From Desulfomarina profundi (GTDB lineage Bacteria > Desulfobacterota > Desulfobulbia > Desulfobulbales > Desulfocapsaceae), in the NCBI RefSeq assembly GCF_019703855.1, contig NZ_AP024086.1, forward strand, positions 682,001-746,000: a DNA stretch of 64,000 nt, given 5' to 3'. Numbering within the stretch: position 1 is the first letter of the stretch; every line of letters starts with the position of its first letter. This document shows positions 8,711 to 50,706 of this stretch, in pieces. The notes under the pieces were generated by a model. It worked only from the letters and a program-made list of their open reading frames with translations, ran no database searches and had not been told where the DNA came from. A program made the translations under genes and the position numbers.

Positions 8711-8714
8711 GTTT

Positions 8715-9482
8715 CTACTTGCTGCTCCAATGAAGTGCATGTGGGTTAAAACCGCACTCCAGGGTGGGTTTGATTATTCTGAAATAAGGAGAAACGTCAA
8801 AATCCCTGGGAGTAAAGAGACTGTGATGTCGGATATGCAGGAGTTCACGCTGACATTTCAGGCCGGATGCTGTGTTTACCTCTTCCAGTACTGTTTTAGG
8901 AAGAATCGGGTATTTGATAGACTGGAAAGCTCTGGCTATAAGGGAAGAACAAATTGCTCTTGTGGGGTCTCCGCTGCCGAGGGAGAGCAACCGCCTTCGG
9001 AAACGGGAAGGAACTGGCGGTGTAGGGAGGAGATAACGCACAAGATCCACGATGTTTCTCAAATCATATTGATTGCCGAGACGACTGGTTGCAAAGGTGA
9101 CGACTTTTTCTATTTCGTCCTGGCTTAATCCTACCGGACGGCAGATACGGGTATGAAAAGGAGCGTACATTGAGAGTTCCACACCTCTGACTCCATCAAT
9201 TATATCCGCTTCAACAAGCACTTTAAGTCTTCCGGTGGTATTGTCAGCAGGAAGCGAGTCCTCGCCAACAAAAAGAGCAGCATGTGACCAGCTGGACTGG
9301 GTCAGATACTTGATGGCTGTACTGAAAGTGCTGCTCCCGTCAACCAGCAGTACGTCACCTTTTCTGAGACTTTGGGCAAGTTTTTCCGGGGTGGTTGTTG
9401 CCACCTGAACATTGTCATCCTTTGATCTGGAGAGATATTTCGCCAGACTTCTACCGATTTTATGCAGAATTTTCATAAGCAT
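8715..9482 (-). CDS. YiiX/YebB-like permuted NlpC/P60 cysteine peptidase family protein
   Basis: About 255 aa. Features of the circularly permuted papain-like (YiiX, DUF830-type) group are visible: GDVLLVDG followed by SSWSHAALFVG with the conserved His, an acidic strand (LVEADIIDGV), and the catalytic-Cys segment AICSSLIARAF. Members act on lipids, peptides or peptidoglycan-like amides. No signal peptide is visible, but the basic amphipathic N-terminus could attach to membrane. Start uncertain: ATG 9482 or 9476, with no clear ribosome site. It is the last host gene before the prophage. Confidence 0.72.
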   Translation of the reverse strand: MLMKILHKIGRSLAKYLSRSKDDNVQVATTTPEKLAQSLRKGDVLLVDGSSTFSTAIKYLTQSSWSHAALFVGEDSLPADNTTGRLKVLVEADIIDGVRGVELSMYAPFHTRICRPVGLSQDEIEKVVTFATSRLGNQYDLRNIVDLVRYLLPTPPVPSRFRRRLLSLGSGDPTRAICSSLIARAFQSIKYPILPKTVLEEVNTASGLKCQRELLHIRHHSLFTPRDFDVSPYFRIIKPTLECGFNPHALHWSSK

Positions 9483-9494
9483 TTCTGTTTGCAA

Positions 9495-9736
9495 GCTGTG
9501 TATTCAACAGTTTGTATGTTGAGTGTGGAGAATTATTTTCCCGCTTTATTTCAAGGTGGCCTGATTATAATATAGGCATGCAGAGTGTAACATGGGAGAA
9601 TTAATTCAGGTTTTCAGGGATAAAAACTTGAAAAAAGGGAATAAAATGGGGAATTCAAGACTCGGGGGGTGAGTGGAAAATACAAGCAGGGAACAAAACG
9701 TCAAGCTGAACGCCCTGTTTATAGAGGAAAATGAGG
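9495..9736. other. Gene-free host flank downstream of the original tRNA-Arg
   Basis: No gene seen. From 9671 the sequence is an imperfect copy of 50542-50610 (for example CAAGCAGGGA and GAACGCCCTGTTTATA in both), continuing the attachment repeat outward. It is the chromosomal sequence that originally followed the tRNA gene. Confidence 0.6.
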
Positions 9737-9804
9737 AAAAACAACGCTAAATCAGTGGTACACCCGGAGGGATTCGAACCCCCGACACCCGGATTCGAAG
9801 TCCG
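9737..9804. repeat. Prophage left attachment site (3' tRNA-Arg remnant)
   Basis: 68 bp identical to 50611-50678. It contains the 3' half of a tRNA-Arg on the minus strand (CCA end, T arm, part of the anticodon arm) but diverges within the anticodon stem, so it is not a functional tRNA gene. The break point defines the left prophage boundary. Confidence 0.92.
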
Positions 9805-9902
9805 TAGAATAATTGCATTAATTAGTTGTATTCAGAGGATTATTTGAAGAAATCGTAGAATATGGGTACAAATAAAGGTACATAAATAATTAAATTGTAG
9901 GA

Positions 9903-10115
9903 TTAAGATGTTATTTTTCCATCTTGAACCTCGGAAGGCTTGTAACTCCAATGTAACTGGATTTCAGGATGTTCTCTTTTTAATAAGGCAAGAATTGAAC
10001 CAGAATTTTCCAGTATATCTCTCGAAATAGTTTCAAGATTTTTTGATATAATTTCTCGTTGTTTCTCGGTTGAAGTATCTTTTGAATAAATTTTTAAAAA
10101 GTTAACTTTTTTCAT
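9903..10115 (-). CDS. 70-aa protein, third gene of cargo operon
   Basis: Small protein, no recognised family, mostly helical and charged (TEKQREIISKNLETISRDIL region) with a short C-terminal tail. Its start lies inside the 3' end of the GAF membrane-protein gene (14-bp overlap), indicating translational coupling and the same operon. It is the last gene before attL. AT-rich like its two partners. It could be a regulator or accessory subunit of the module; this is inferred from position only. Confidence 0.5.
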   Translation of the reverse strand: MKKVNFLKIYSKDTSTEKQREIISKNLETISRDILENSGSILALLKREHPEIQLHWSYKPSEVQDGKITS

Positions 10116-11730
10116 GAGTTTTCCTTGTTTTCTTTAGAGATGAAATCATTTCGTAAACAACGCAATTAACGAAAGGTAATATTTCGATTAAATTCGTTTG
10201 ATGTGAGTGTTCACAAAAATAATTTGAATCATCAGAATCAACAGTCAATACACCAATAATTTCATCAATGTCGTATCCATTGTTTCTAGTGAGTTCAATT
10301 AGGTTTCTATCTAATTCAAGTGGTATTGCAATCATAGACTTCAAATATTTTTTCTGTTTTTCGTGAAAATATGGTATTTGATTATTACAAGCACTTATCG
10401 GAGCTTTTTTTTGAAAAGAGCGAGAAGCTATTGAATCACTTGTATAAGATAGTTTATCTTTAATTTTTTTATCTTTAAAAGAAATGAAACATTCATTGAT
10501 GAATGGTATGCAAATTAAAGGTTCTAAAATGTTATTTTGATCATTTTTAACAAAAAGAGTACATCTGAAACGTATTTCATCATGATTTATTACTTTTAAC
10601 ATTTTGATCATGGCAATTAGAATTGCTATTAAGGGTTTCTTGTCTCCTGGTAACCTAGAATTGCCCAGAATAAGCTTTTTAATATTTTGTTTAACAATAT
10701 TGTCCAAACAACCTAATACAGTTATTAATCGTTGGATTTTATATCCTGACAGATGGGAGACATCTTTTGAATTATACTGTACAAATTTGTGTTCTTTATC
10801 TCCATATTTACAAACCGTACTCGTAAATGCTGCTTTGAAATTATCTGAGTGGAAAATATTATTCACAATCTCAGAGAATTGACCCCAAAATCCACGTGTA
10901 CGTTCATTATTTGGTGAATTAAAAAGACCTATAACTATGCCGAAAATAATTAGCAATATAATATAATACAATAGTAAGTAGTTAATAGAAGCGAGGTTAA
11001 CACCATAAAGTTCAAATATTCGGGAAAAAATATAAACAAAAGATAAAAAAAACGCAGAAGCCCAAACACTATATCTTAAGAAAAAAATGAACCGACATTT
11101 ATGTGTATGGTATAATAATTCATTAATATAAGATGGTGACAATTTAGCCACTATACTATTCCAGTGATATAAAGTCTTGTCTTCACCGTATGCTAGTCTA
11201 TTGCCACAAGCAGGAGTATCACATGAACTGCATCTACTTGGCAAACGGTTTGAAGGAAGGTTTTCTGCGTAAAAGTTAATTTCTGACATGAAACGAAACA
11301 ATCCTGGGGGACGAAAATTCTTAGATTTTTTTTCTAGGTTTCTTAATAAGATACTATCGCTTAATGGATCATTGCTTAAAAAATGAATTGATACGACCAA
11401 AAAGATAATAAAAAGCATGGCAAATTTCAACCCTTTGCCGGTGTAAATTGGAAGTTGCTCTTCTTTGTCAAAATTTTGTATAAATATTTTTTTCAGCCAA
11501 TGATTCTCAATTATAGTTTTTAATATATCAGAATTCTCAATCGCTCTTTCAACAATTATTGTTGTTGTACTATATTCTGGACTTGAAAACTCTATTCCTA
11601 TTACAATTAGAATTGAAGTAAAAATAGCAAAAAAAAATCTGAGTGTGAACTTTTTATTATCCCACTTCTTGCGGATTTCATAATTTTCTAATTTATGAAT
11701 ATTGATAGGGTTTTTAAAAAGAAAAAGCAT
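10102..11730 (-). CDS. Four-TM membrane protein with Cys cluster and GAF-like sensor domain
   Basis: 542 aa. Hydrophobic helices at about 28-46, 102-118, 213-238 and 248-270. Between the second and third lies a cytosolic or periplasmic segment with C167-x2-C170-x4-C175 and nearby His residues (208, 210), which may bind metal or form disulfides. The C-terminal part (about 385-535) looks like a GAF domain: helices, an LICIPF strand, then LKSMIAIPLEL and DEIIGVLTVDSDD strands. GAF domains sense small ligands or redox state. Middle gene of a leftward operon with the HEPN-like gene 45 bp upstream and the 70-aa gene overlapping its end. Strong AT bias compared with phage core genes suggests separate acquisition. 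No known defence family is recognised. Confidence 0.6.
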   Translation of the reverse strand: MLFLFKNPINIHKLENYEIRKKWDNKKFTLRFFFAIFTSILIVIGIEFSSPEYSTTTIIVERAIENSDILKTIIENHWLKKIFIQNFDKEEQLPIYTGKGLKFAMLFIIFLVVSIHFLSNDPLSDSILLRNLEKKSKNFRPPGLFRFMSEINFYAENLPSNRLPSRCSSCDTPACGNRLAYGEDKTLYHWNSIVAKLSPSYINELLYHTHKCRFIFFLRYSVWASAFFLSFVYIFSRIFELYGVNLASINYLLLYYIILLIIFGIVIGLFNSPNNERTRGFWGQFSEIVNNIFHSDNFKAAFTSTVCKYGDKEHKFVQYNSKDVSHLSGYKIQRLITVLGCLDNIVKQNIKKLILGNSRLPGDKKPLIAILIAMIKMLKVINHDEIRFRCTLFVKNDQNNILEPLICIPFINECFISFKDKKIKDKLSYTSDSIASRSFQKKAPISACNNQIPYFHEKQKKYLKSMIAIPLELDRNLIELTRNNGYDIDEIIGVLTVDSDDSNYFCEHSHQTNLIEILPFVNCVVYEMISSLKKTRKTHEKS

Positions 11731-11775
11731 TACACAGTCCTTTAAGTGAAACTAGTGAATAATTAGTGATTATTA

Positions 11776-12948
11776 TTATGTAAATAATTCTGCTTTTTGA
11801 ATAAAGTTTGATGGAAAACTATTTATTATTAATTGTCGTAAATAGCCATATTTTTTAAGATATCGGTTGTCCGAATTGTTTGTTGCGCTATACTCGAATA
11901 AAATCTCATGGTTATAATCAAAAACCTCAATAGAAAAAAGACCAAAAGTCGGTTTGTGTATCGAATGATTACCTGCAATACTTATTAAGGAAATAGTTTT
12001 TTCGATGAGATCTGGAGTAAATATTTTTAGGGAGCGATTGTTTAACAACAATTTGATGAAACCATCTTTCGAAAACTTTATTTCAATAGAATTTGAATAG
12101 TTATTGTTGGGTATAGAAATTATTTCGTGTTTTTTTGAATTGATCATTAAATAAAGATTAAATCTATTGTCTTCATCCATGTCTTTAGATAAAGAAAGAA
12201 TCTCTTCATTTTTGTTTATCATAAAACTAATTATGTTTCCTTTGTTTGAGCAGGATGGACTGTGTTTGAATTGAAAAATAAATTTCACCGTAAAGTCCAT
12301 TAACGGCTTATCTTCAAAAGAAATATAAGCTGAAGAAACTCCATCAAAGAATAAAATATTTTGAGTTTTTTCTTCGGAGTGATTGACAAAATCATTAAAA
12401 ATTATATTTGAACAAGGATTAGAACAATAATCAACTGCGTCAACTAATGTTCGTAAATATTGCAAGATACTTATATAATAATATCTTAATTCACTAACGT
12501 TATTCCATATTTTAGATTTGAATATAAGCTTATCAAATTTTTTAAGTTCTTTTGGAATTTTGATTTTTTTTCTTAGTTCTTTAATATGTGTTTCAACTTT
12601 GTGGCTATCTAGTGTGATGCTTAATCGATGTGCATAACAATTTCTAATATTTCTTATAGATTCAAAAGCATCGTAAGCTGTTTTGTCAATTAGATCTGAG
12701 AAAAATGCAAATCTAATTTTATAATATAATGAATTAATGCCAATCTTATTCAAAGTATTTATTTCTTTTTTAAAATGATATTTTAATATCAATCTTCCTA
12801 GTAGTAATTCAATCATCGATGCTAAAATTAGTATTGCTTCAAGCTCGCTATCGACCGAAAAATGATGAATGGATTGATAATACTCTTCATACATATCTCC
12901 TATGAAAAGCCCTTTAAGTGAAGAAGAATTTGTATTTTCAATTGTCAT
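11776..12948 (-). CDS. HEPN/MltR-like domain fused to LamG-like jelly roll
   Basis: 390 aa. Residues about 12-130 are all-alpha and resemble the MltR/DUF4145 HEPN clan: an LFIGDMYEEYY start, helix ELEAILILASMIELLLGRLIL, then ESIRNIRNCYAHRLS, in which R102-N-C-Y-A-H107 matches the R-x4-H motif that is catalytic in HEPN RNases. Residues about 198-355 look like a LamG/concanavalin jelly roll (FFDGVSSAYISF, then DFTVKFIFQFKH, ending FGLFSIEVFDY). First gene of the leftward cargo operon and read in the same direction as the repressor. MltR itself is a regulator, so RNase activity is inferred. The combination with a beta-sandwich is unfamiliar to me. Confidence 0.6.
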   Translation of the reverse strand: MTIENTNSSSLKGLFIGDMYEEYYQSIHHFSVDSELEAILILASMIELLLGRLILKYHFKKEINTLNKIGINSLYYKIRFAFFSDLIDKTAYDAFESIRNIRNCYAHRLSITLDSHKVETHIKELRKKIKIPKELKKFDKLIFKSKIWNNVSELRYYYISILQYLRTLVDAVDYCSNPCSNIIFNDFVNHSEEKTQNILFFDGVSSAYISFEDKPLMDFTVKFIFQFKHSPSCSNKGNIISFMINKNEEILSLSKDMDEDNRFNLYLMINSKKHEIISIPNNNYSNSIEIKFSKDGFIKLLLNNRSLKIFTPDLIEKTISLISIAGNHSIHKPTFGLFSIEVFDYNHEILFEYSATNNSDNRYLKKYGYLRQLIINSFPSNFIQKAELFT

Positions 12949-13200
12949 AAGTTTAATTAAGTTGTGTTTTTCGAAAAATTAAATCTATCTCGTTCCCCTG
13001 GGGCGGAGTGTAAGGCCATATCTCTCCTTTATCTTCCCAGAACCATTAAAAATTGCATTCAAGAGCTAAAGATATGCGAAGGCAACTGGATCGATTTGGG
13101 GCTGGTGTACCTCTTAATCATCTACTAACTGTAGGTCTTTGTAGTCCTATTAATATTACGTAGAAAAGAAAATACCTTTTCTTTTGATCAATATGATTAC
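12949..13200. other. Gene-free spacer upstream of the cargo operon
   Basis: No convincing reading frame. AT-rich at both ends with a less AT-rich core at about 12990-13130. It lies between the HEPN-like gene start and the dead nuclease fragment, so it should hold the cargo operon promoter; I could not single out -35/-10 boxes confidently. Confidence 0.4.
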
Positions 13201-13620
13201 TGATAATAAAAAATAGCAATTTTATTTGATCGGAAAAATTATACAAATCATTAAAGTTACTGATCGAGAATTTTGTTTCTTTCTTGTTTTCGTCGAAAAC
13301 ATCAAGATATTAATGTGAAGTATTAAAATGGAGTCGACAAAATGGTTTTCTGTTATTTTTATCAAGTAATATTCCGAAATAACTCTTAGTGTCACGATGG
13401 TATACTCGTTCAATATCGAAAACTTCCCGCATGATTGCTTTAACTACTAGAAATCCTTCCAATTCTTCTTCAGTTGAAATGATGCCTTATCGTCAATTCC
13501 AAATTGTTCATCATTTCGTTCTTCTGCGGCAGGGATTTCGGTTTCTTTCGCCCCATGGTCTGATAAGGCAGTTCTGAGACGATTGTTTAAATGATCGTTT
13601 ATAACTGATTTTAATGCACT
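13201..13620 (-). pseudogene. Decayed C-terminal part of an HsdR-N-type restriction nuclease-like protein
   Basis: Read on the minus strand in pieces, the DNA gives ALKSVINDHLNNRLRTAL, then after a one-base frameshift near 13480 EEELEGFLVVKAIMREVF, RDTKSYFGILLDKNNRKP and CRLHFN. A TAA nonsense codon at about 13310 follows, and then YLDVFDENKKET and DLYNFSDQIK. This order is characteristic of the C-terminus of type I restriction R-N (HSDR_N_2) family proteins found as stand-alone nucleases. The N-terminal nuclease half is absent, so this is a dead fragment. It shows that the slot between repressor and attL has held defence-type cargo before. Confidence 0.7.
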
Positions 13621-13657
13621 TTTTTAAATAAAATATAGATATTTATACCCAATAACT

Positions 13658-14188
13658 TTATTTCTGATTTGCAATTAAATTATCCTGCTCATCAGTTTGT
13701 AAATTTTTCCTGGCTGCTTTTTTTTCCCTGATATAGTCGCGATAATTGGCAAAGCCTTTGTGCAGATCATCCATAAACAGATCAACCCCTTCTTTATCAG
13801 GGCCATAATATTCAGCTACAAATTCAAATAATTCGTCAAAAAAACCGAGGCACTGTTGTTTGAAGAACAATAACCTGGCCTTTTCGTTTTCCTTCCCTAT
13901 ATCACTGGCCCTTTTATATGTGCCGAAGTCTAGTGTTTTCTCTGCTGTTTTAATTTCATTTTGTGGATACGGATAGCCCTTTCCTGTTTGTAACCAATCA
14001 ATATTGCATTCAAAAAAATAAGCAATTTTAACAATTGTTGATCGTCTTGGCGACTTAACTACACGGTTCAGCCATTTGCTTATTTGGGTTTCCGAAATTC
14101 CTGTTTCTTTAGAAAATTTCCTCTGATCAATTTTTTTTAAGTCAATAAGTTGTTGTAATCTGGCGGCAAAATCATTTCTACTTGTCAT
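13658..14188 (-). CDS. Phage repressor, XRE-type helix-turn-helix
   Basis: 176 aa from ATG 14188 (an in-frame GTG at 14221 would add 11 residues). The N-terminal HTH_3/XRE domain has FSKETGISETQISKWLNR as turn and recognition helix, and a second small motif, IDWLQTGKG, typical of Cro/CI-family regulators. The C-terminal part is helical and charged with no LexA/S24 peptidase signature, so induction by RecA-type self-cleavage is not evident. Divergent from the Cro-like gene across a short operator region. Expected to hold the lysogenic state. Confidence 0.82.
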   Translation of the reverse strand: MTSRNDFAARLQQLIDLKKIDQRKFSKETGISETQISKWLNRVVKSPRRSTIVKIAYFFECNIDWLQTGKGYPYPQNEIKTAEKTLDFGTYKRASDIGKENEKARLLFFKQQCLGFFDELFEFVAEYYGPDKEGVDLFMDDLHKGFANYRDYIREKKAARKNLQTDEQDNLIANQK

Positions 14189-14253
14189 TGATTTAATCAC
14201 GTTTAATTTAACACTTGCCACTGCTTTAATTAACGGTTATCATTGTAGCCATT
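14189..14253 (+). promoter_or_regulatory. Repressor/Cro divergent operator and rightward promoter
   Basis: A rightward promoter is visible as TTGCCA (14215-14220), 17 bp, TATCAT (14238-14243). Transcription would start within a few bases of the Cro-like ATG at 14254, giving a very short or no leader. Two similar blocks, TTTAATTTAAC at 14202 and CTTTAATTAAC at 14224, are candidate operators 22 bp apart, the second lying between the -35 and -10 boxes. Confidence 0.5.
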
Positions 14254-14466
14254 ATGACACCTACACAGATAAAAGGCGCAATAATGCTGGCCACTGGTTT
14301 AACCATTGATGAGTTCGCAAAAAAACAAGGTTATCAAAAAGCATCGTTCTATCGGACCATCAAAGGAACGAGACGCTCAAAAAAAATACGGGCGATCATT
14401 GAGCGCACATGCGCCCATATAATAAAGATTGACTGGCCTGAACCGGCCAAGGAAAAAACAGAATAA
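14254..14466 (+). CDS. Small Cro-like DNA-binding protein
   Basis: 70-aa protein opposite the repressor, in the position of Cro/Ner. An HTH can be read as TIDEFAKKQGYQKASFYRTIKG (second part as recognition helix), followed by a basic stretch (TRRSKKIRAIIER). First gene of the rightward early operon. A large hairpin follows its stop. Confidence 0.68.
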   Translation: MTPTQIKGAIMLATGLTIDEFAKKQGYQKASFYRTIKGTRRSKKIRAIIERTCAHIIKIDWPEPAKEKTE

Positions 14467-14473
14467 GAAAAGT

Positions 14474-14534
14474 CCTTTCCCCGGACGCAGTTCAGGATAT
14501 GTCGCTGGCACTTCATATCCTAACCGGGGAAAGG
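14474..14534 (+). terminator. Large two-part hairpin after the Cro-like gene
   Basis: CCTTTCCCCGG (14474-14484) pairs with CCGGGGAAAGG (14524-14534), and inside it CAGGATATG pairs with CATATCCT. The 61-bp structure lies in the 139-bp gap before the next gene. The nearest T-rich tract is weak, so it may be an attenuator, a regulatory RNA fold or a protein site rather than a simple terminator. Confidence 0.6.
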
Positions 14535-14605
14535 CATTTTGCAAGAATATTTTTATAGATGGCACTACTTACCACTAAGCCAAAAAAAACATTTGAGAGG
14601 AAGCT

Positions 14606-15115
14606 GTGATACCAAGGGAAAAGAAATACCCCAGGGACTATCAGGTGATGGATGACGTTCTCAACCGTGGTGATGCTGTTGAACTTGCGAGGTTGCTTTC
14701 AGTTTCTCCCCAGCATGTACGCTCCTGGTGTCGTGCCCCTGAAACCGAAGATGAATTCGCTACTGGTCGTTTTGGCCCTCTTGCCCGCATTCGTACCATG
14801 ATATCAATGATAAGAGATGATGATGGCGTTCCTGACCGGGCTTTTCCTATTGCTCAGTATATAGCACAGCTGTGCAAAGGGACATTTGTTCCTGACCTGC
14901 AACTGACCGAATCCATGGAATCTGACATCGTGCGTGATATATCCGCTGTTTTTAAGGAAACCGGCGAGGCTATCGAGGTCACCCGGAAAAATTGGCTGGA
15001 AAGAAACGGTAAAAACACGGAGCAGCAAAAGGCTCAGTGCCGCAGAGAAATAAACGAAGCTCTGGTGGCTTTGCTGCAACTCAGAGAGCATCTGGAGAGG
15101 CCAAGAGAACTATGA
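14606..15115 (+). CDS. Phage early regulatory protein (HTH at N-terminus)
   Basis: 169 aa starting at GTG 14606 with GAGAGG upstream. The N-terminal region (MDDVLNRGDAVELARLLSVS, then QHVRSWC) reads as an HTH of the kind found in CII-like or small phage regulators. The rest is helical, with an ISAVFKETGEAIEV segment. It overlaps the next gene by 4 bp (ATGA). A degenerate duplicate of its 5' end lies at 16064-16168. Specific function unknown. Confidence 0.6.
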   Translation: MIPREKKYPRDYQVMDDVLNRGDAVELARLLSVSPQHVRSWCRAPETEDEFATGRFGPLARIRTMISMIRDDDGVPDRAFPIAQYIAQLCKGTFVPDLQLTESMESDIVRDISAVFKETGEAIEVTRKNWLERNGKNTEQQKAQCRREINEALVALLQLREHLERPREL

Positions 15116-24102: not shown

Positions 24103-25940
24103 TGTAGAAAAACAGCCCAGGCAACTGCAATTTTCCCACATATCTTTTCAAAAAAATTCAAATTTCAAAACAATTCAAAAAATATCCTGATGTAAAATTA
24201 CTTTTTTCTCTAACATCCTCAATAAAGCAATTTATCTCACCAATTTCCAGCTTTTCCTAACCATTTTCCAGCAATCTACACAAAACCCATTCCATATGCA
24301 TGCACCTTTTTAAGGTTATGGATAATGCAGAAAAGGTTCCACTGGATATTCACCTTCTTTTTCGATCTCAGGGTGAACCTGTTCAGACCGATTGTTGATC
24401 TGATATGGGCAAAAGGTGGTTCTCCTATTGCCAATCGCATGGAATAGATGGCCCTGCCAGCGGCTGAATCTATTTTTCGCTTCATCTTTTCTGCACAACT
24501 GGTTTTCTTCTTTTTATCCATGCGCCCAGTAAAATAGGCAACCTGACGTGTTTTGGTGCGATCAGGATAGCGAAGACATTTTGACCTCAGTTTGCAGGGA
24601 ACACAGGCGGATTGGGGTGCCTGGAACCGGACAGAATGATGGCCTTTGGTAAAGATATTCCCACCACTTCTATAGAGCCGTTTCCCGGCAGGACAGATAC
24701 AGTAACTCAGATCTTCGGGAAAGGTAAAATCAGCAGGTACAAAGAGGTTCTTTCTGCCTTCTCGTTTGGCCCGTTCTTTTCTTGTTCGATCCTTATATCT
24801 GCCGTAATCTTTGAACCTGGGATCCCGTTTTCTGAACTGGTTATCGGCTACATACGCGTCTATCTCTTTTTCTGCCAGCATCTCCATATTTTTATTTGCA
24901 TGGTATCCGCTGTCTGCCAGGAGTTTTGCATCTTTAAAGACATCGTTGTCTTTTCCGGTTTCCTGTAAATTTTCGCTGATTTTGTCTATCATCGGTTCCA
25001 GCAGGTCCTGCTCACTGCCTTGACCATAGGCTTCGGCGGCTACTATCACCTGGGTTTTACTGTCCACGGCGGTAACACCGTTATAGCCCTGGATAACACC
25101 TTTTGAGGTCTTCATCTTGGCGGATTCATTGTCGGTAATATTGGATTTGACAGGTCTTTTGCCTTTTCCTCTCCGATCATCATTATTATCCAGCCATTTC
25201 CGTACCTTCTTTATATTTTTACGCAGGGATTTTACATATTTTTCTTTTTTCTCTTTGATATTTTCATCACTCTTTTCCTGGTCATTCATATGATGGTGGT
25301 TGACCATATTTGCTATAGCTGTTTCCATCTTCGTTACTTTTTTCTGAAAATCAGCCCTGGTTCCGCTCCAGGTAACAGAGGCGTTGCTGGGCATTTTGCA
25401 GCCGTCAATGGCAAACATCTCTCTGCCGATCAATTTCTGTTCATCGCAAACCAGAAGTACTTCAAGAAACAGTGAGACTATTTCCTTGTCCATGCTGGAA
25501 ATAAAATCTGCAATTGTGGTGAAATGGGGACGACTGTCGGCAGACAGTGCCATAAAGATTACATTCTCACGACAGGCTCTCTCTATTTTACGGCTGCTCA
25601 CAATCCCTCTGGAATAGGCAAAGAGAATGATTTTAAGCAGAATCTTCGGATCATAGGCCGGGGCACCGGAATCATCATTGTGATAGCGATCATTAAAGAT
25701 GGAAAGATCAAGTTCATGATCAATGAGATAATTCAGCGTATATTCAAATGTGCCGGGAAGGATCTGATTTGCAAAATGGATGGGAATGAACTTGCCCTGA
25801 GCATAGGAATAAGGTTTATACCGTGCCATTGCAGCTCCATTTATCGAAGGTAAGGGGTATTTCGATCAATTTGCGACAGCAGTATAACATTTTTACACGT
25901 ATTATTCAGTAGTTAATTTGTTTTGTTGACTTTTTCTACA
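24103..25940. mobile_element. IS1182-family insertion sequence
   Basis: 1,838 bp with 10-bp terminal inverted repeats TGTAGAAAAA (24103-24112) and TTTTTCTACA (25931-25940), one transposase gene and short AT-rich ends. Size and gene fit the IS1182 family. No target duplication was evident beside the ends. It lies between the HNH and radical SAM genes. Confidence 0.85.
24276..25829 (-). CDS. IS1182-family transposase
   Basis: 517 aa, full length for the family. DUF772-like N-terminal region (AYDPKILLKIILFAYSRGI), catalytic region starting MFAIDGCKMPSN with a candidate first Asp, GYNGVTAVDSKTQVIVAAEA with a candidate second acidic residue, and a Cys-rich C-terminal DDE segment (CICPAGKRLYRSGG, CVPCKLRSKC). 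Appears intact, so the element may be active. Confidence 0.93.
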   Translation of the reverse strand: MARYKPYSYAQGKFIPIHFANQILPGTFEYTLNYLIDHELDLSIFNDRYHNDDSGAPAYDPKILLKIILFAYSRGIVSSRKIERACRENVIFMALSADSRPHFTTIADFISSMDKEIVSLFLEVLLVCDEQKLIGREMFAIDGCKMPSNASVTWSGTRADFQKKVTKMETAIANMVNHHHMNDQEKSDENIKEKKEKYVKSLRKNIKKVRKWLDNNDDRRGKGKRPVKSNITDNESAKMKTSKGVIQGYNGVTAVDSKTQVIVAAEAYGQGSEQDLLEPMIDKISENLQETGKDNDVFKDAKLLADSGYHANKNMEMLAEKEIDAYVADNQFRKRDPRFKDYGRYKDRTRKERAKREGRKNLFVPADFTFPEDLSYCICPAGKRLYRSGGNIFTKGHHSVRFQAPQSACVPCKLRSKCLRYPDRTKTRQVAYFTGRMDKKKKTSCAEKMKRKIDSAAGRAIYSMRLAIGEPPFAHIRSTIGLNRFTLRSKKKVNIQWNLFCIIHNLKKVHAYGMGFV

Positions 25941-27170: not shown

Positions 27171-27343
27171 ATGAAAAAAAATATTTCAGACAACTTCGGT
27201 GCAAATGTTTTGATAATAGGACATCGTTGTTACCGATGCAAGCATGAATGGAAGCCCAATAATATGGAAAAACCCCTCGGGTCTGCCCTAAATGTAAATC
27301 CCCATACTGGGATAAGCCAAGAACAAATGGAGCAGGAAAATGA
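27171..27343 (+). CDS. Zinc-ribbon microprotein, frameshifted, coupled to RM gene
   Basis: The first frame gives MKKNISDNFGAN then GHRCYRCKHEWKPN. One base appears missing in a CCCC run (27273-27276); in the other frame it continues RVCPKCKSPYWDKPRTN and ends at a TGA overlapping the RM start (ATGA, 27340-27343). The joined product, about 57 aa, has two CxxC pairs and the typical CPKCKSPYWDKPR ending of small zinc-ribbon proteins in mobile elements. Stop/start overlap shows the joined frame is the real one. It may be a controller or partner of the RM enzyme. Confidence 0.65.
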
Positions 27344-29913
27344 GCGAAGAGTTGATACAAAAAGATTTAATTGAGAATCCGGGTAAAATTGGAAAGTGGG
27401 ACTTTTATAACATTGGCGCAACTACCATAAAGCAACTCAAGGAAAATAGAATTATCAGGAATGTGGATTACGGCCAAGAGGAAAAAAAGAAAGTGGACGC
27501 TTTAATAGTCCAAAATAAAAATGTAATTGCTGTAATTGAATACAAAAAACCTTCCCAGTTTAATACAACTCCTAAAAAGAAAAAAGCTGTTAAGCAAGAA
27601 TTGATTGTTGCTCAAAAACTAAAAGCAAATGTGCTGATAGCAACCGATAAGCAAGAGAGTATCTGGATTAATGTATTAACGGGGAATGAAATAAAAGACG
27701 ATGAAGGGAGAAAGATACAATACAATTTTGATTTCAATGACGACAACCTCCCCAAATTGATAGAAAAAATCATAGACTCAGTTAATCAAAGAAATGATCA
27801 AATAAAGCCTAGGGATTTAGTGAACCCAACTAGGCTTGCTAAACAAATATGGCAGGATATATGGTCGGTGAGCGGGGCAACTCCAGAAAATTGTTTATAT
27901 ACTTTCGTTGAGTTGTTCATTTTTAAATATTTAAGTGACCTGTCTGTGTTGAAAGGGATTTATAGTTTTAATAGTTTAATTAAAAGCTACGAAACGAACA
28001 CGGAAGAGGAAGTGTTAGAAAATTATGCTCAAATTATTAGGCCTAAAATCAAAGAACTATTTCCAGAAAGCCATGACGATAAAACTACAATAATTAACGG
28101 GACTATTTTTGTTAGTAAGGCTCAAAAAGCTGTAAAGGGCTATAGCACTGTCTTTAAGAAAGTTTTGTTTAAATTCAATAACTATGGAAAATTAGAACAC
28201 ATTGATTATGACTTTAAAAGCCAGTTGTTTGAAAGCTTCCTGAAAGAAAGCATAAGTAAGAAAAATTGGGGCCAATTCTTTACACCTATAAAGGTGGTTC
28301 GGGCCATTGTTGAAATGGCAAAAGATGATATTAAAAATAGTGCGAGAATTTGCGACCCTGCTTGTGGTGTCGGAAAATTTCTTTTAGAGCCGATTAAGAC
28401 AAGGCTGGATCAGTTCTATAAAATTAATAAAAATGGTATTGTACCCAAAATAACTATTCATGGCTTCGATAAAGGTTTTGATAAAGATGAGCAAAAAACA
28501 ATCATATTGGCAAAAGCCAATATGTTGATTTATTTTTCTGACTTAATCAAAGAGAACTCTGGAATAACTAAGAATTTTGCCCAACTATTTAATGAAAGTT
28601 TTACGTTAAAAACAAACTCAATTCTAGGTACGCTTGCAGAGCCGGTAAAGGAAAAATATGATTTAATTTTAACAAACCCTCCTTACGTGACAAGCGGTAG
28701 TAGTAATTTAAAAGATGAAATAAAAAAAGATGGCGAATTAGAGAATTATTATAAAATTAATGCGATGGGGGTTGAGGGCTTATTTATGGAATGGATCATA
28801 AAGGCCTTGAAATCTGATGGGAAAGCTTTTGTAGTTGTACCTGATGGGATTTTTAACCGTCAAAATGATGCTAAATTGCGTAAATTTATTATTGAAGAAT
28901 GCTTTTTGGATGCAATAATCTCATTGCCAGAAAAAACATTTTTTACCACACCCAAAAAAACGTACATTCTTGCTTTAACAAAAAAATCTAACAAAGAAAC
29001 AAAACAAACCGAGCCAGTTTTTACATATTTTGTAAGCGAGATAGGTGAAACAAGGGATATTTACCGTTTTGATATGGAACAAAACGACTTGCAAGAAGCT
29101 GTTACCTTATTTACCTTTTTTAAAGGGAACAAAACACATTTTAGCAAAATCAATACTGACGAAAGATGTAAGATACAGCACATTGATAAATTTCACCCAG
29201 AAGATCATTGGTCTGTTGATAGATGGTGGACAAAAGATGAAAAAATTAAAATAGGTATAGTAGAGAAAGACAAATTGGTAACGCCAATAGAATTTAGCGA
29301 AAATATTAAAGATATTGCTGAATCCTTAAATGAATATAGCGATATAATAAAAGAAGCTTCTGTGAAAAACAAAAAAGTAAACGAGTTTAAGGAAGTCTGC
29401 TTAAATGATATTGGATACTTTAGATTATTTATCGGGAAAAGGTTATTAAAAAAAGATTTAATTAAAATACATGGTGATATACCTATTTATAGTGCCAATG
29501 TTTTTAAACCAATAGGTTTTCATGAGGAAAGCAACGTGTTGGATTTTAGTAATAATTTTGTTCTATGGGGGATAGATGGAGACTTTGATTTTAATTCATT
29601 ACCCAAGGATACACCATTTGTTACCACAGACCACTGTGGAGCAATAAGAATATTGACAGACGATTTGTTGCCTGACTACTTGATGATACAATTAGAAAAC
29701 GTTAAATCGTTATACGGATTTGATCGTGGGCTAAGGGCATCATTGAAGAATATGAAAAAAATTAAAATTTCAATCCCATTTAACCGTAGCGGTAAGATTG
29801 ATATCGAGAAGCAATATGAAATAGTTGAAAAATACAAATCAATTCAAGAAATAAAAGAACAAATTGAAAAATTTAAAGAACAGATTGATTCATCAAAGAT
29901 TGATTTTCGTTGA
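27340..29913 (+). CDS. Single-chain restriction-modification enzyme (type IIG-like: nuclease, N6-MTase, specificity)
   Basis: 857 aa. N-terminal HsdR_N-like PD-(D/E)xK nuclease: D53 and E67-Y-K69 in VDALIV and AVIEYKK. Helical N6_N region, then GQFFTP (311), motif I DPACGVGKF (339) and the catalytic NPPY (446-449) of an adenine-N6 methylase. Residues about 640-857 look like an HsdS-type target recognition domain ending in a coiled coil. One protein would methylate and cut. Markedly AT-rich compared with adjacent structural genes, with its own promoter and a 20-bp-stem terminator, so it is a self-contained cargo cassette inserted between HNH and gpW. Confidence 0.85.
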   Translation: MSEELIQKDLIENPGKIGKWDFYNIGATTIKQLKENRIIRNVDYGQEEKKKVDALIVQNKNVIAVIEYKKPSQFNTTPKKKKAVKQELIVAQKLKANVLIATDKQESIWINVLTGNEIKDDEGRKIQYNFDFNDDNLPKLIEKIIDSVNQRNDQIKPRDLVNPTRLAKQIWQDIWSVSGATPENCLYTFVELFIFKYLSDLSVLKGIYSFNSLIKSYETNTEEEVLENYAQIIRPKIKELFPESHDDKTTIINGTIFVSKAQKAVKGYSTVFKKVLFKFNNYGKLEHIDYDFKSQLFESFLKESISKKNWGQFFTPIKVVRAIVEMAKDDIKNSARICDPACGVGKFLLEPIKTRLDQFYKINKNGIVPKITIHGFDKGFDKDEQKTIILAKANMLIYFSDLIKENSGITKNFAQLFNESFTLKTNSILGTLAEPVKEKYDLILTNPPYVTSGSSNLKDEIKKDGELENYYKINAMGVEGLFMEWIIKALKSDGKAFVVVPDGIFNRQNDAKLRKFIIEECFLDAIISLPEKTFFTTPKKTYILALTKKSNKETKQTEPVFTYFVSEIGETRDIYRFDMEQNDLQEAVTLFTFFKGNKTHFSKINTDERCKIQHIDKFHPEDHWSVDRWWTKDEKIKIGIVEKDKLVTPIEFSENIKDIAESLNEYSDIIKEASVKNKKVNEFKEVCLNDIGYFRLFIGKRLLKKDLIKIHGDIPIYSANVFKPIGFHEESNVLDFSNNFVLWGIDGDFDFNSLPKDTPFVTTDHCGAIRILTDDLLPDYLMIQLENVKSLYGFDRGLRASLKNMKKIKISIPFNRSGKIDIEKQYEIVEKYKSIQEIKEQIEKFKEQIDSSKIDFR

Positions 29914-49336: not shown

Positions 49337-50437
49337 TCAGGTGCCCAGGTGGTCAATTTTGTCTATGACTTCCAGGCGGTAGCTGTCCAGGGTATGGGTG
49401 TATCTCATCGCCATTTTCAGTGTTGAATGACCAAGGATGTCAGCGATAACCCTGATGTCTACACCGGCCATCAGCAGGTGGGATGCTGCAGTATGGCGGA
49501 TATCATGGGGCTTGAAATGGGGTATTACTGGAAATCCAGGATAGGCTTGCTGGTCTTCCGCTTTGTTTTTAAGCTGTCGCCAGACCTGTTGCCAGCAGGA
49601 GCGGAAAATGCTGCCCGGTCGGAGCATGGTAGATGAAGAATGGCGATGTTCCGGTTTCAGAAAAAAAAAGCCGTCTTTCCCCGGTTCCAGAGAAGCAAGG
49701 GCTTCCGCCACTGTTTTTGTCATCGGGACGGTGCGGGGACGGCCCGATTTTGTTTTTTCGATTACAATATATCGTTTTTCCAGATTGATGTTGTCCTGGT
49801 GCAGCCTGGCGGCTTCACCCGTCCGCATACCAGTATGCATTAGAAGAACGACAAAAGGATAGAATTTCCTGTTTCTCAGAGTCTTGGCTTCCTGTATGAC
49901 CAGGCGTGCCTCTTCGGAGGTCAGAAAACGCTGTCTGCCAGGGGTTGGAGGAATGCGATCCACATCATCCACCGGATTGTCCACGGGGATTTTCCATGTT
50001 TTTCTGGCAATGCGAAACATTTTGGACAACATTGCCAGTTCCTGCCGTATTGACGAATTTGATGCATTTTCCCTGATGCGCTGATTCTGGTAAATGTTGA
50101 CCAGAGCACCATCAATATCCCCGAGCGGAGTATTTTTGCCAAGAATGCGCTCCAGGTGGCGTTTGCTGTAGCGTTCACGGTCCAACGTGGAGACAGCCTT
50201 ACCCTTTGCCCTGCACTCTTCTCTATATTTGTCCAGAGCTTTACCAAGCAGTGCCTGTTGAGCAAGCCTGGGATCCTTGAATCTCTTTGCCCGTATAAGG
50301 GCTTCCTGCTCGGAGGCCCACGTCTTTGCATCACCTTTCAGGTCAAAGGTTTTCTTTATCGGCCGAAACCCTTTTCTGCGAATCACTGCCTGCCAGCAGA
50401 TTCCATTTTTTCGCTCAACTTTAACAAAAGTTGCCAT
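49337..50437 (-). CDS. int: Tyrosine integrase
   Basis: 366 aa from ATG 50437 (a TTG at 50458 would add seven). SAM-like core-binding domain (about 80-165) and catalytic domain with Arg in HTGMRTGE, the HxxR of HDIRHTAASHLL, a second His in ILGHST, and Tyr in MRYTHT. It recombines attP with the tRNA-Arg gene 190 bp away. Leftward orientation places its start next to attR. Confidence 0.96.
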   Translation of the reverse strand: MATFVKVERKNGICWQAVIRRKGFRPIKKTFDLKGDAKTWASEQEALIRAKRFKDPRLAQQALLGKALDKYREECRAKGKAVSTLDRERYSKRHLERILGKNTPLGDIDGALVNIYQNQRIRENASNSSIRQELAMLSKMFRIARKTWKIPVDNPVDDVDRIPPTPGRQRFLTSEEARLVIQEAKTLRNRKFYPFVVLLMHTGMRTGEAARLHQDNINLEKRYIVIEKTKSGRPRTVPMTKTVAEALASLEPGKDGFFFLKPEHRHSSSTMLRPGSIFRSCWQQVWRQLKNKAEDQQAYPGFPVIPHFKPHDIRHTAASHLLMAGVDIRVIADILGHSTLKMAMRYTHTLDSYRLEVIDKIDHLGT

Positions 50438-50610
50438 CGCTTCTGACTCTTGACTCAAATTATATGATTATGTAAACAGCAGTCGGGTACATTTTCGGGT
50501 ACACTTATCTTGAAAATATATAAAAACATTTAATCACATATGAGTGAAAAATACAAGCAGGGAGGAAAAAACAGAAGACAGAACGCCCTGTTTATAAAGG
50601 GAAAATGAGA
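50438..50610. other. Integrase upstream region with phage copy of the tRNA downstream flank
   Basis: Between integrase start and the attachment core. From 50542 it is an imperfect copy of the chromosomal flank 9671-9736, so the phage carries about 65 bp of diverged tRNA downstream sequence beyond the core, including the GAACGCCCTGTTTATA block. Confidence 0.6.
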
Positions 50611-50678
50611 AAAAACAACGCTAAATCAGTGGTACACCCGGAGGGATTCGAACCCCCGACACCCGGATTCGAAGTCCG
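50611..50678. repeat. Prophage right attachment site
   Basis: 68 bp identical to 9737-9804, covering the 3' half of the tRNA-Arg gene and 19 bp of downstream sequence. Here it completes the functional tRNA. Confidence 0.92.
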
Positions 50679-50706
50679 GTGCTCTATCCAGCTGAGCTAC
50701 GGGTGC
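50630..50706 (-). tRNA. tRNA-Arg(TCG)
   Basis: Minus-strand cloverleaf of 77 nt: acceptor GCACCCG/CGGGTGT, D arm with AGCTCAGCTGGATAGAGC, anticodon arm CCGGA-CTTCGAA-TCCGG giving anticodon TCG, T arm with GGTTCGAATCC, discriminator A and encoded CCA. Reads CGA. The prophage integrated into its 3' half and restored it. Confidence 0.97.

Follow-up and report, generated by a model that had tools for sequence, protein, structure and literature searches.

Bacterial immune responses commonly end in the action of HEPN ribonucleases, many of which are carried by prophages. HEPN toxins with a downstream antitoxin, as in the HEPN-MNT (HepT/MntA) systems, are likewise established. HEPN domains that retain an Rx4-6H motif are predicted to be metal-independent endoribonucleases and are often toxins or abortive-infection (Abi) effectors, and many HEPN proteins of the MtlR family are thought to be noncleaving (Anantharaman et al. 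2013; PMC3710099). According to the same survey, MtlR represses the mannitol operon, DNA binding by MtlR was undetected, and many members of the family are without the motif. A prophage-encoded protein of the same fold, HepS of Salmonella Gifsy-1, has been solved both by itself (9oij) and in complex with the J tail tip of lambda (9oik), as stated in the titles of the PDB entries, and it is from these titles alone that we regard HepS as a defense protein. As for the location of such genes, Rousset et al. 2022 (PMC9122126) describe prophage hotspots carrying defense systems, one of which lies between cI and the integrase.

Here, we analyzed 64,000 nucleotides of Desulfomarina profundi (contig NZ_AP024086.1, positions 682,001 to 746,000), referred to below as the window, in which a tRNA-Arg-integrated prophage carries three intact leftward genes with attL on one side and the repressor on the other (Table 1). 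It is plausible to regard this three-gene module as a candidate phage defense cassette. We consider the chances about even that the prophage has here an exchangeable piece of cargo built around a HEPN-type abortive-infection RNase, with a putative membrane partner.

Table 1. Features of the prophage and the three-gene module (positions in the window)
Feature	Position	Strand	Remarks
Prophage, tRNA-Arg-integrated	about 9708-50678		~41 kb
attL	9708..9804		Copy of tRNA-Arg 3' region; 97% identity to 50581-50678
70-aa protein	9903..10115	-	From ORF list; AAGGA Shine-Dalgarno-like site upstream
542-aa membrane protein	10102..11730	-	Four predicted TM segments; Cx2Cx4C; GAF-like motifs at C-terminal end (not significant)
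390-aa HEPN protein	11776..12948	-	HEPN at residues ~20-180; RNCYAH at 102-107; beta-rich C-terminal region at ~190-365
Decayed type I restriction endonuclease-like C-terminal remnant	~13130..13620	-	Frameshifts and stops; minus-strand frames read
Phage repressor, HTH Cro/C1 type	13658..14221	-	Pfam HTH_26, 1.3e-10
Tyrosine integrase	49337..50458	-	At attR end; ORF with integrase motifs; phmmer matches to integrases of L018, L039, and L042
attR repeat	50581..50678		Spans 3' part of tRNA-Arg(tcg), 50630-50706

The first-pass annotation of this DNA had described three tightly packed, AT-rich leftward genes between the repressor and attL, the last of them small and overlapping its neighbor, and this description holds. 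The ORFs lie in that interval, the GC content of the module is 26 to 29% versus 42 to 59% across most of the prophage, and attL is one copy of a near-identical repeat. It follows from the ORF coordinates that a 45-bp gap separates the genes of the 390-aa and 542-aa proteins and that the start of the 70-aa gene overlaps the end of the 542-aa gene by 14 bp. When the module stretch was simulated 300 times with an order-1 Markov model, the longest open frame had a median of 81 and a maximum of 147 codons; since chance gives nothing near such length, the 390- and 542-codon frames are real. The label "lysogen-expressed" found no support, as promoter-like sites at the module were at chance level (29 versus 24.6 +/- 5.2 by chance) and no convincing terminator was found there. 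No structured RNA was found across positions 9500 to 15000. The start of the HEPN gene (12894-12948, minus strand) is uncertain, the listed ATG being without a Shine-Dalgarno site and an AGGAG lying just 5' of Met19. The packing, the common strand, and the common composition are the sole basis for proposing that the three genes function together.

Once the phage genome is circular, the module would be flanked by the integrase and the repressor. Related phages, whose replication genes are common with those of the window prophage at 48 to 70% identity, carry differing cargo at this slot: in L018 nothing lies between integrase and repressor, in L039 and L114 the slot holds two genes for membrane proteins with TM segments, one of them DUF4760, and in L041 (6567-13368, plus strand) it holds an AT-rich gene for a 799-aa PHP/AAA protein that matches several defense models, together with a C5-methyltransferase and Vsr. 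L040, which ends just past the repressor, and L042, in which no repressor match was found, stood outside this comparison. Besides, the 709 bp separating the module from the repressor are occupied by the restriction remnant, which shows about 44 to 60% identity (tblastn) to plasmid genes annotated as type I restriction endonuclease, and its presence beside the module is a sign of cargo turnover. These observations agree with the earlier description of the interval as a slot for anti-phage cargo. The P2-like and K139-like hotspots are comparable in having variable restriction and Abi cargo between the repressor and the integrase or att site, although they belong to another phage family and the excerpted text describing them (PMC9122126) mentions no HEPN system with a GAF-like membrane protein. 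The variable slot with its turnover of defense genes is the best evidence that the module may have a role in defense.

The same prophage carries a second AT-rich (~32% GC) defense-like cargo gene between terminase and portal (27340-29913, plus strand), which encodes an 857-aa N6 methyltransferase with an N-terminal nuclease-like region and with PADLOC type I/IIG and mads_2 matches; an IS1182-like transposase, judged by eye from its ORF (24276-25829, minus strand), adjoins it. In L039, another three-gene operon (8713-10493, minus strand; 263, 195, and 138 aa) lies beyond the integrase by tRNA-Pro, and its 138-aa protein looks HEPN-like (NRAYYAAL; PADLOC HEPN_IX, E 0.012).

Against Pfam, the 390-aa protein gave a match to DUF4145 under the cutoff (E = 8.4e-4) and none to PF05068 (MtlR) at E <= 1. 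PF05068 was matched by three single-domain HEPN relatives from the same phylum as the window (L003, L004, and L006), and a profile of these three with the 390-aa protein found the solved MtlR proteins 6kcr (3e-10) and 3brj (8e-6), the match to HepS being marginal (E 0.029). Across 14 aligned sequences, I101, R102, N103, A106, and H107 were invariant and an acidic residue upstream of Rx4H was mostly conserved, so that the site has the Rx4-6H form with a polar residue after the arginine (R102 N103 ... H107). A structure model built from this alignment was good for about residues 30 to 180, where pLDDT in the core was mostly 80 to 90, and unreliable in the C-terminal half, where it fell below 50 beyond about residue 180. 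The fold of the model matched MtlR proteins at Z 11.5 to 12.6 over about 140 residues (best 3brj, 12.6) and HepS at Z 12.4 (9oij; 153 residues, 12% identity) and 10.8 (9oik), although Z values of 12 to 13 are in a range where helical bundles may match through arrangement alone. Lower Z values were obtained for the HEPN toxins of MntA-HepT complexes (about 8) and for the HEPN domains of Csm6 (about 7), and all of these matches rank above the background of unrelated helical proteins. Because the Foldseek E values were weak (best, 0.069), the HEPN fold assignment depends on the fold in combination with the motif and the sequence profile. The DUF4145 match, the all-helical model core, and the fold matches support the assignment of the N terminus to the MtlR/DUF4145 type of HEPN domain, in which the Rx4H motif is intact. 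Thus, the R-x4-H motif in an MtlR-like helical domain reported earlier was confirmed, and the structural match to HEPN proteins that the first-pass annotation had proposed to look for was obtained, with MtlR and HepS at Z about 12 from a model of fair confidence.

Since the catalytic motif is kept, the 390-aa protein is predicted to be an active RNase (PMC3710099). The protein shares with MtlR (PF05068; 3brj, 6kcr, and 3c8g) the HEPN-type helical fold, and its single-domain relatives match the MtlR family, whereas it differs in having Rx4H, a long C-terminal extension, and a prophage setting rather than a mannitol operon. It is conceivable that the HEPN domain is a noncleaving regulator, which would bind RNA like MtlR and tune lysogeny or a host pathway, as MtlR is the closest family and many of its members have lost the motif (PMC3710099). 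However, RNCYAH is intact here and lost in 6kcr (LREELNHD) and 3brj (LKNHLNSD), and the slot favors cargo over core phage regulators; we consider such a regulator very unlikely.

The proposed RNase also resembles HepS in being prophage-encoded, in its fold, and in its motif, RNCYAH aligning with IRNKYAHK of HepS (IRNxYAHK/R in common). HepS, in contrast, has about 212 residues and is without the C-terminal region. This beta-rich region is possibly concanavalin- or LamG-like, to judge from LamG-like words in the C-terminal half (FDG...YISF...FTVKF and GLFSIEVFD), and the first-pass annotation had called it jelly-roll-like. The motifs are indeed visible, whereas the statistics fall short: the hhalign score to LamG was equalled by 7 of 150 shuffles (about p 0.05), and no Pfam match was found at E <= 10. 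The region was absent from all 31 HEPN relatives inspected (14 viral, 14 cellular, and L003, L004, and L006). By analogy with HepS and the lambda J tail tip, as given in the PDB titles, the C-terminal region of the 390-aa protein may recognize the trigger.

A small overlapping downstream gene is typical of toxin-antitoxin operons. The module might accordingly be an addiction pair stabilizing the prophage, with the HEPN protein as the toxin and the membrane or 70-aa protein as the antidote, and the Z of about 8 between the model and HepT-type HEPN subunits would fit this, as would the HEPN fold with an Rx4H-type site and the toxin-first operon layout common to HEPN-MNT systems. Unlike those systems, the module contains no nucleotidyltransferase partner, family searches having found none among the neighbors of the 390-aa gene. 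Furthermore, neither partner resembled MNT or any known antitoxin in these searches, and a four-TM antitoxin of 542 aa would be unusual, so that an addiction pair appears quite unlikely. The 70-aa protein had no significant match in family libraries, nor was it found among the neighbors of the HEPN relatives.

Turning to the membrane protein, hydropathy placed TM segments at residues 28-46, 100-118, about 214-240, and 252-270 of the 542-aa protein, with C167, C170, and C175 forming Cx2Cx4C between the second and third segments, in agreement with the earlier description of four TM segments and a cysteine cluster. The GAF-like end proposed at the same time is another matter. GAF-like words can be seen at the C-terminal end (ASRSFQKKAPI, LKSMIAIPL, and IIGVLTVDSDDSNYF), although the likeness was not significant: the hhalign score of this end against a GAF profile from the same genome (17.8) was equalled by 4 of 150 shuffles (4 to 7 of 150 for GAF overall), and the protein had no Pfam GAF match at E <= 10. 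A single-sequence structure model was unusable (pLDDT 36). We regard the LamG-like and GAF-like ends as plausible leads rather than findings.

The idea of an infection-sensing membrane protein in control of the HEPN effector had been drawn from gene order and found no support in our analysis. In its fullest form, this idea would make the module a new defense system, in which a membrane ligand sensor of the GAF type, with four TM segments and a cysteine cluster, releases a HEPN RNase that has its own lectin-like recognition domain. We consider this unlikely, and the striking part of the proposal, in which a HEPN-LamG effector is under the control of a GAF sensor in the membrane, stands mostly without proof. 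The proposed combination of sensor, effector, and lectin-like domain occurred in no other locus examined. It is also unlike named defense systems, as the first-pass annotation had remarked: PADLOC 2.0.0, which covers systems up to 2023, contained no family matching the three proteins at E <= 10, and NCBIfam and PHROGs held no models matching them.

We found no relatives of the 542-aa protein in pattern scans of IMG/VR that used either its full length or its C-terminal part, in plasmids and phages (tblastn), in a GTDB pattern scan, or in about 1,300 whole genomes altogether (395 of the phylum, 93 of the family, 13 hosts of HEPN relatives, and 299, 296, and 244 from three other phyla). Because pattern scans detect close relatives only, this means that the protein has no close relative in these collections. 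Weak local matches were all that was seen, and the aligned ones from Bacteroidota were rejected because they looked like chance. Across the same phages, plasmids, IMG/VR and GTDB pattern scans, and genomes, the three genes did not turn up together a second time. The HEPN relatives at 14 viral and 14 cellular loci were all short and single-domain, with no relative of the membrane protein beside them; L005, L010, and others, among them histidine kinases, had been dropped from the relatives because they matched by chance. Thus, the module as a unit is known only here, as no relatives of the 542-aa and 70-aa proteins were detected and 31 of 31 HEPN relatives are without the C-terminal domain. A conserved gene neighborhood, which the first-pass annotation had itself chosen as a test of its proposal, was not seen, there being no second set and no relative of the membrane gene; on present data the test fails because the membrane protein was not found elsewhere, and co-inheritance of the membrane and small genes with the HEPN gene cannot be established as these genes have no known relatives.

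The distribution of the HEPN relatives, which stand alone at 14 viral and 14 cellular loci, would suit a reading in which the slot holds two unrelated cargo items, namely, a self-contained HEPN RNase sensing a phage component through its own C-terminal domain, and separate membrane and small proteins that exclude superinfecting phages or damage the membrane. The solution of HepS with a phage tail tip, according to the PDB titles, and the mixture of unrelated cargo in the slots of related phages also fit. Nevertheless, the 45-bp gap, the common strand, and the common extreme AT-richness suggest a single transfer and a single transcript, and two unrelated items seem to us somewhat unlikely.

Under the preferred reading, a HEPN abortive-infection RNase with a membrane partner, we infer that a phage serves as the trigger, that the 390-aa protein acts as an RNase, and that the three proteins cooperate. 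The HEPN domain would be inactive in the lysogen until, most likely, a second phage infects the cell and thereby activates it, the C-terminal beta-rich region probably recognizing the trigger or positioning the enzyme. Once active, the HEPN domain would cleave RNA of the host, with tRNA or mRNA as the probable target, and growth would halt before phage maturation; such abortive infection would shield both the resident prophage and the population of lysogens. The four-TM protein, probably cotranscribed, is the best candidate for a partner of the HEPN protein, as a regulator or a membrane anchor, and the 70-aa protein would be an accessory.

These 3 kb are a candidate for a new arrangement of trigger and sensing, in which a HEPN domain is combined with an additional domain at the C terminus and with a putative membrane partner that is an orphan. 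Should the partners turn out to have no part in this, the locus would be one further member of a known HEPN kind. If the module works, it would strengthen the case that hosts are armed by their prophages against competitors.
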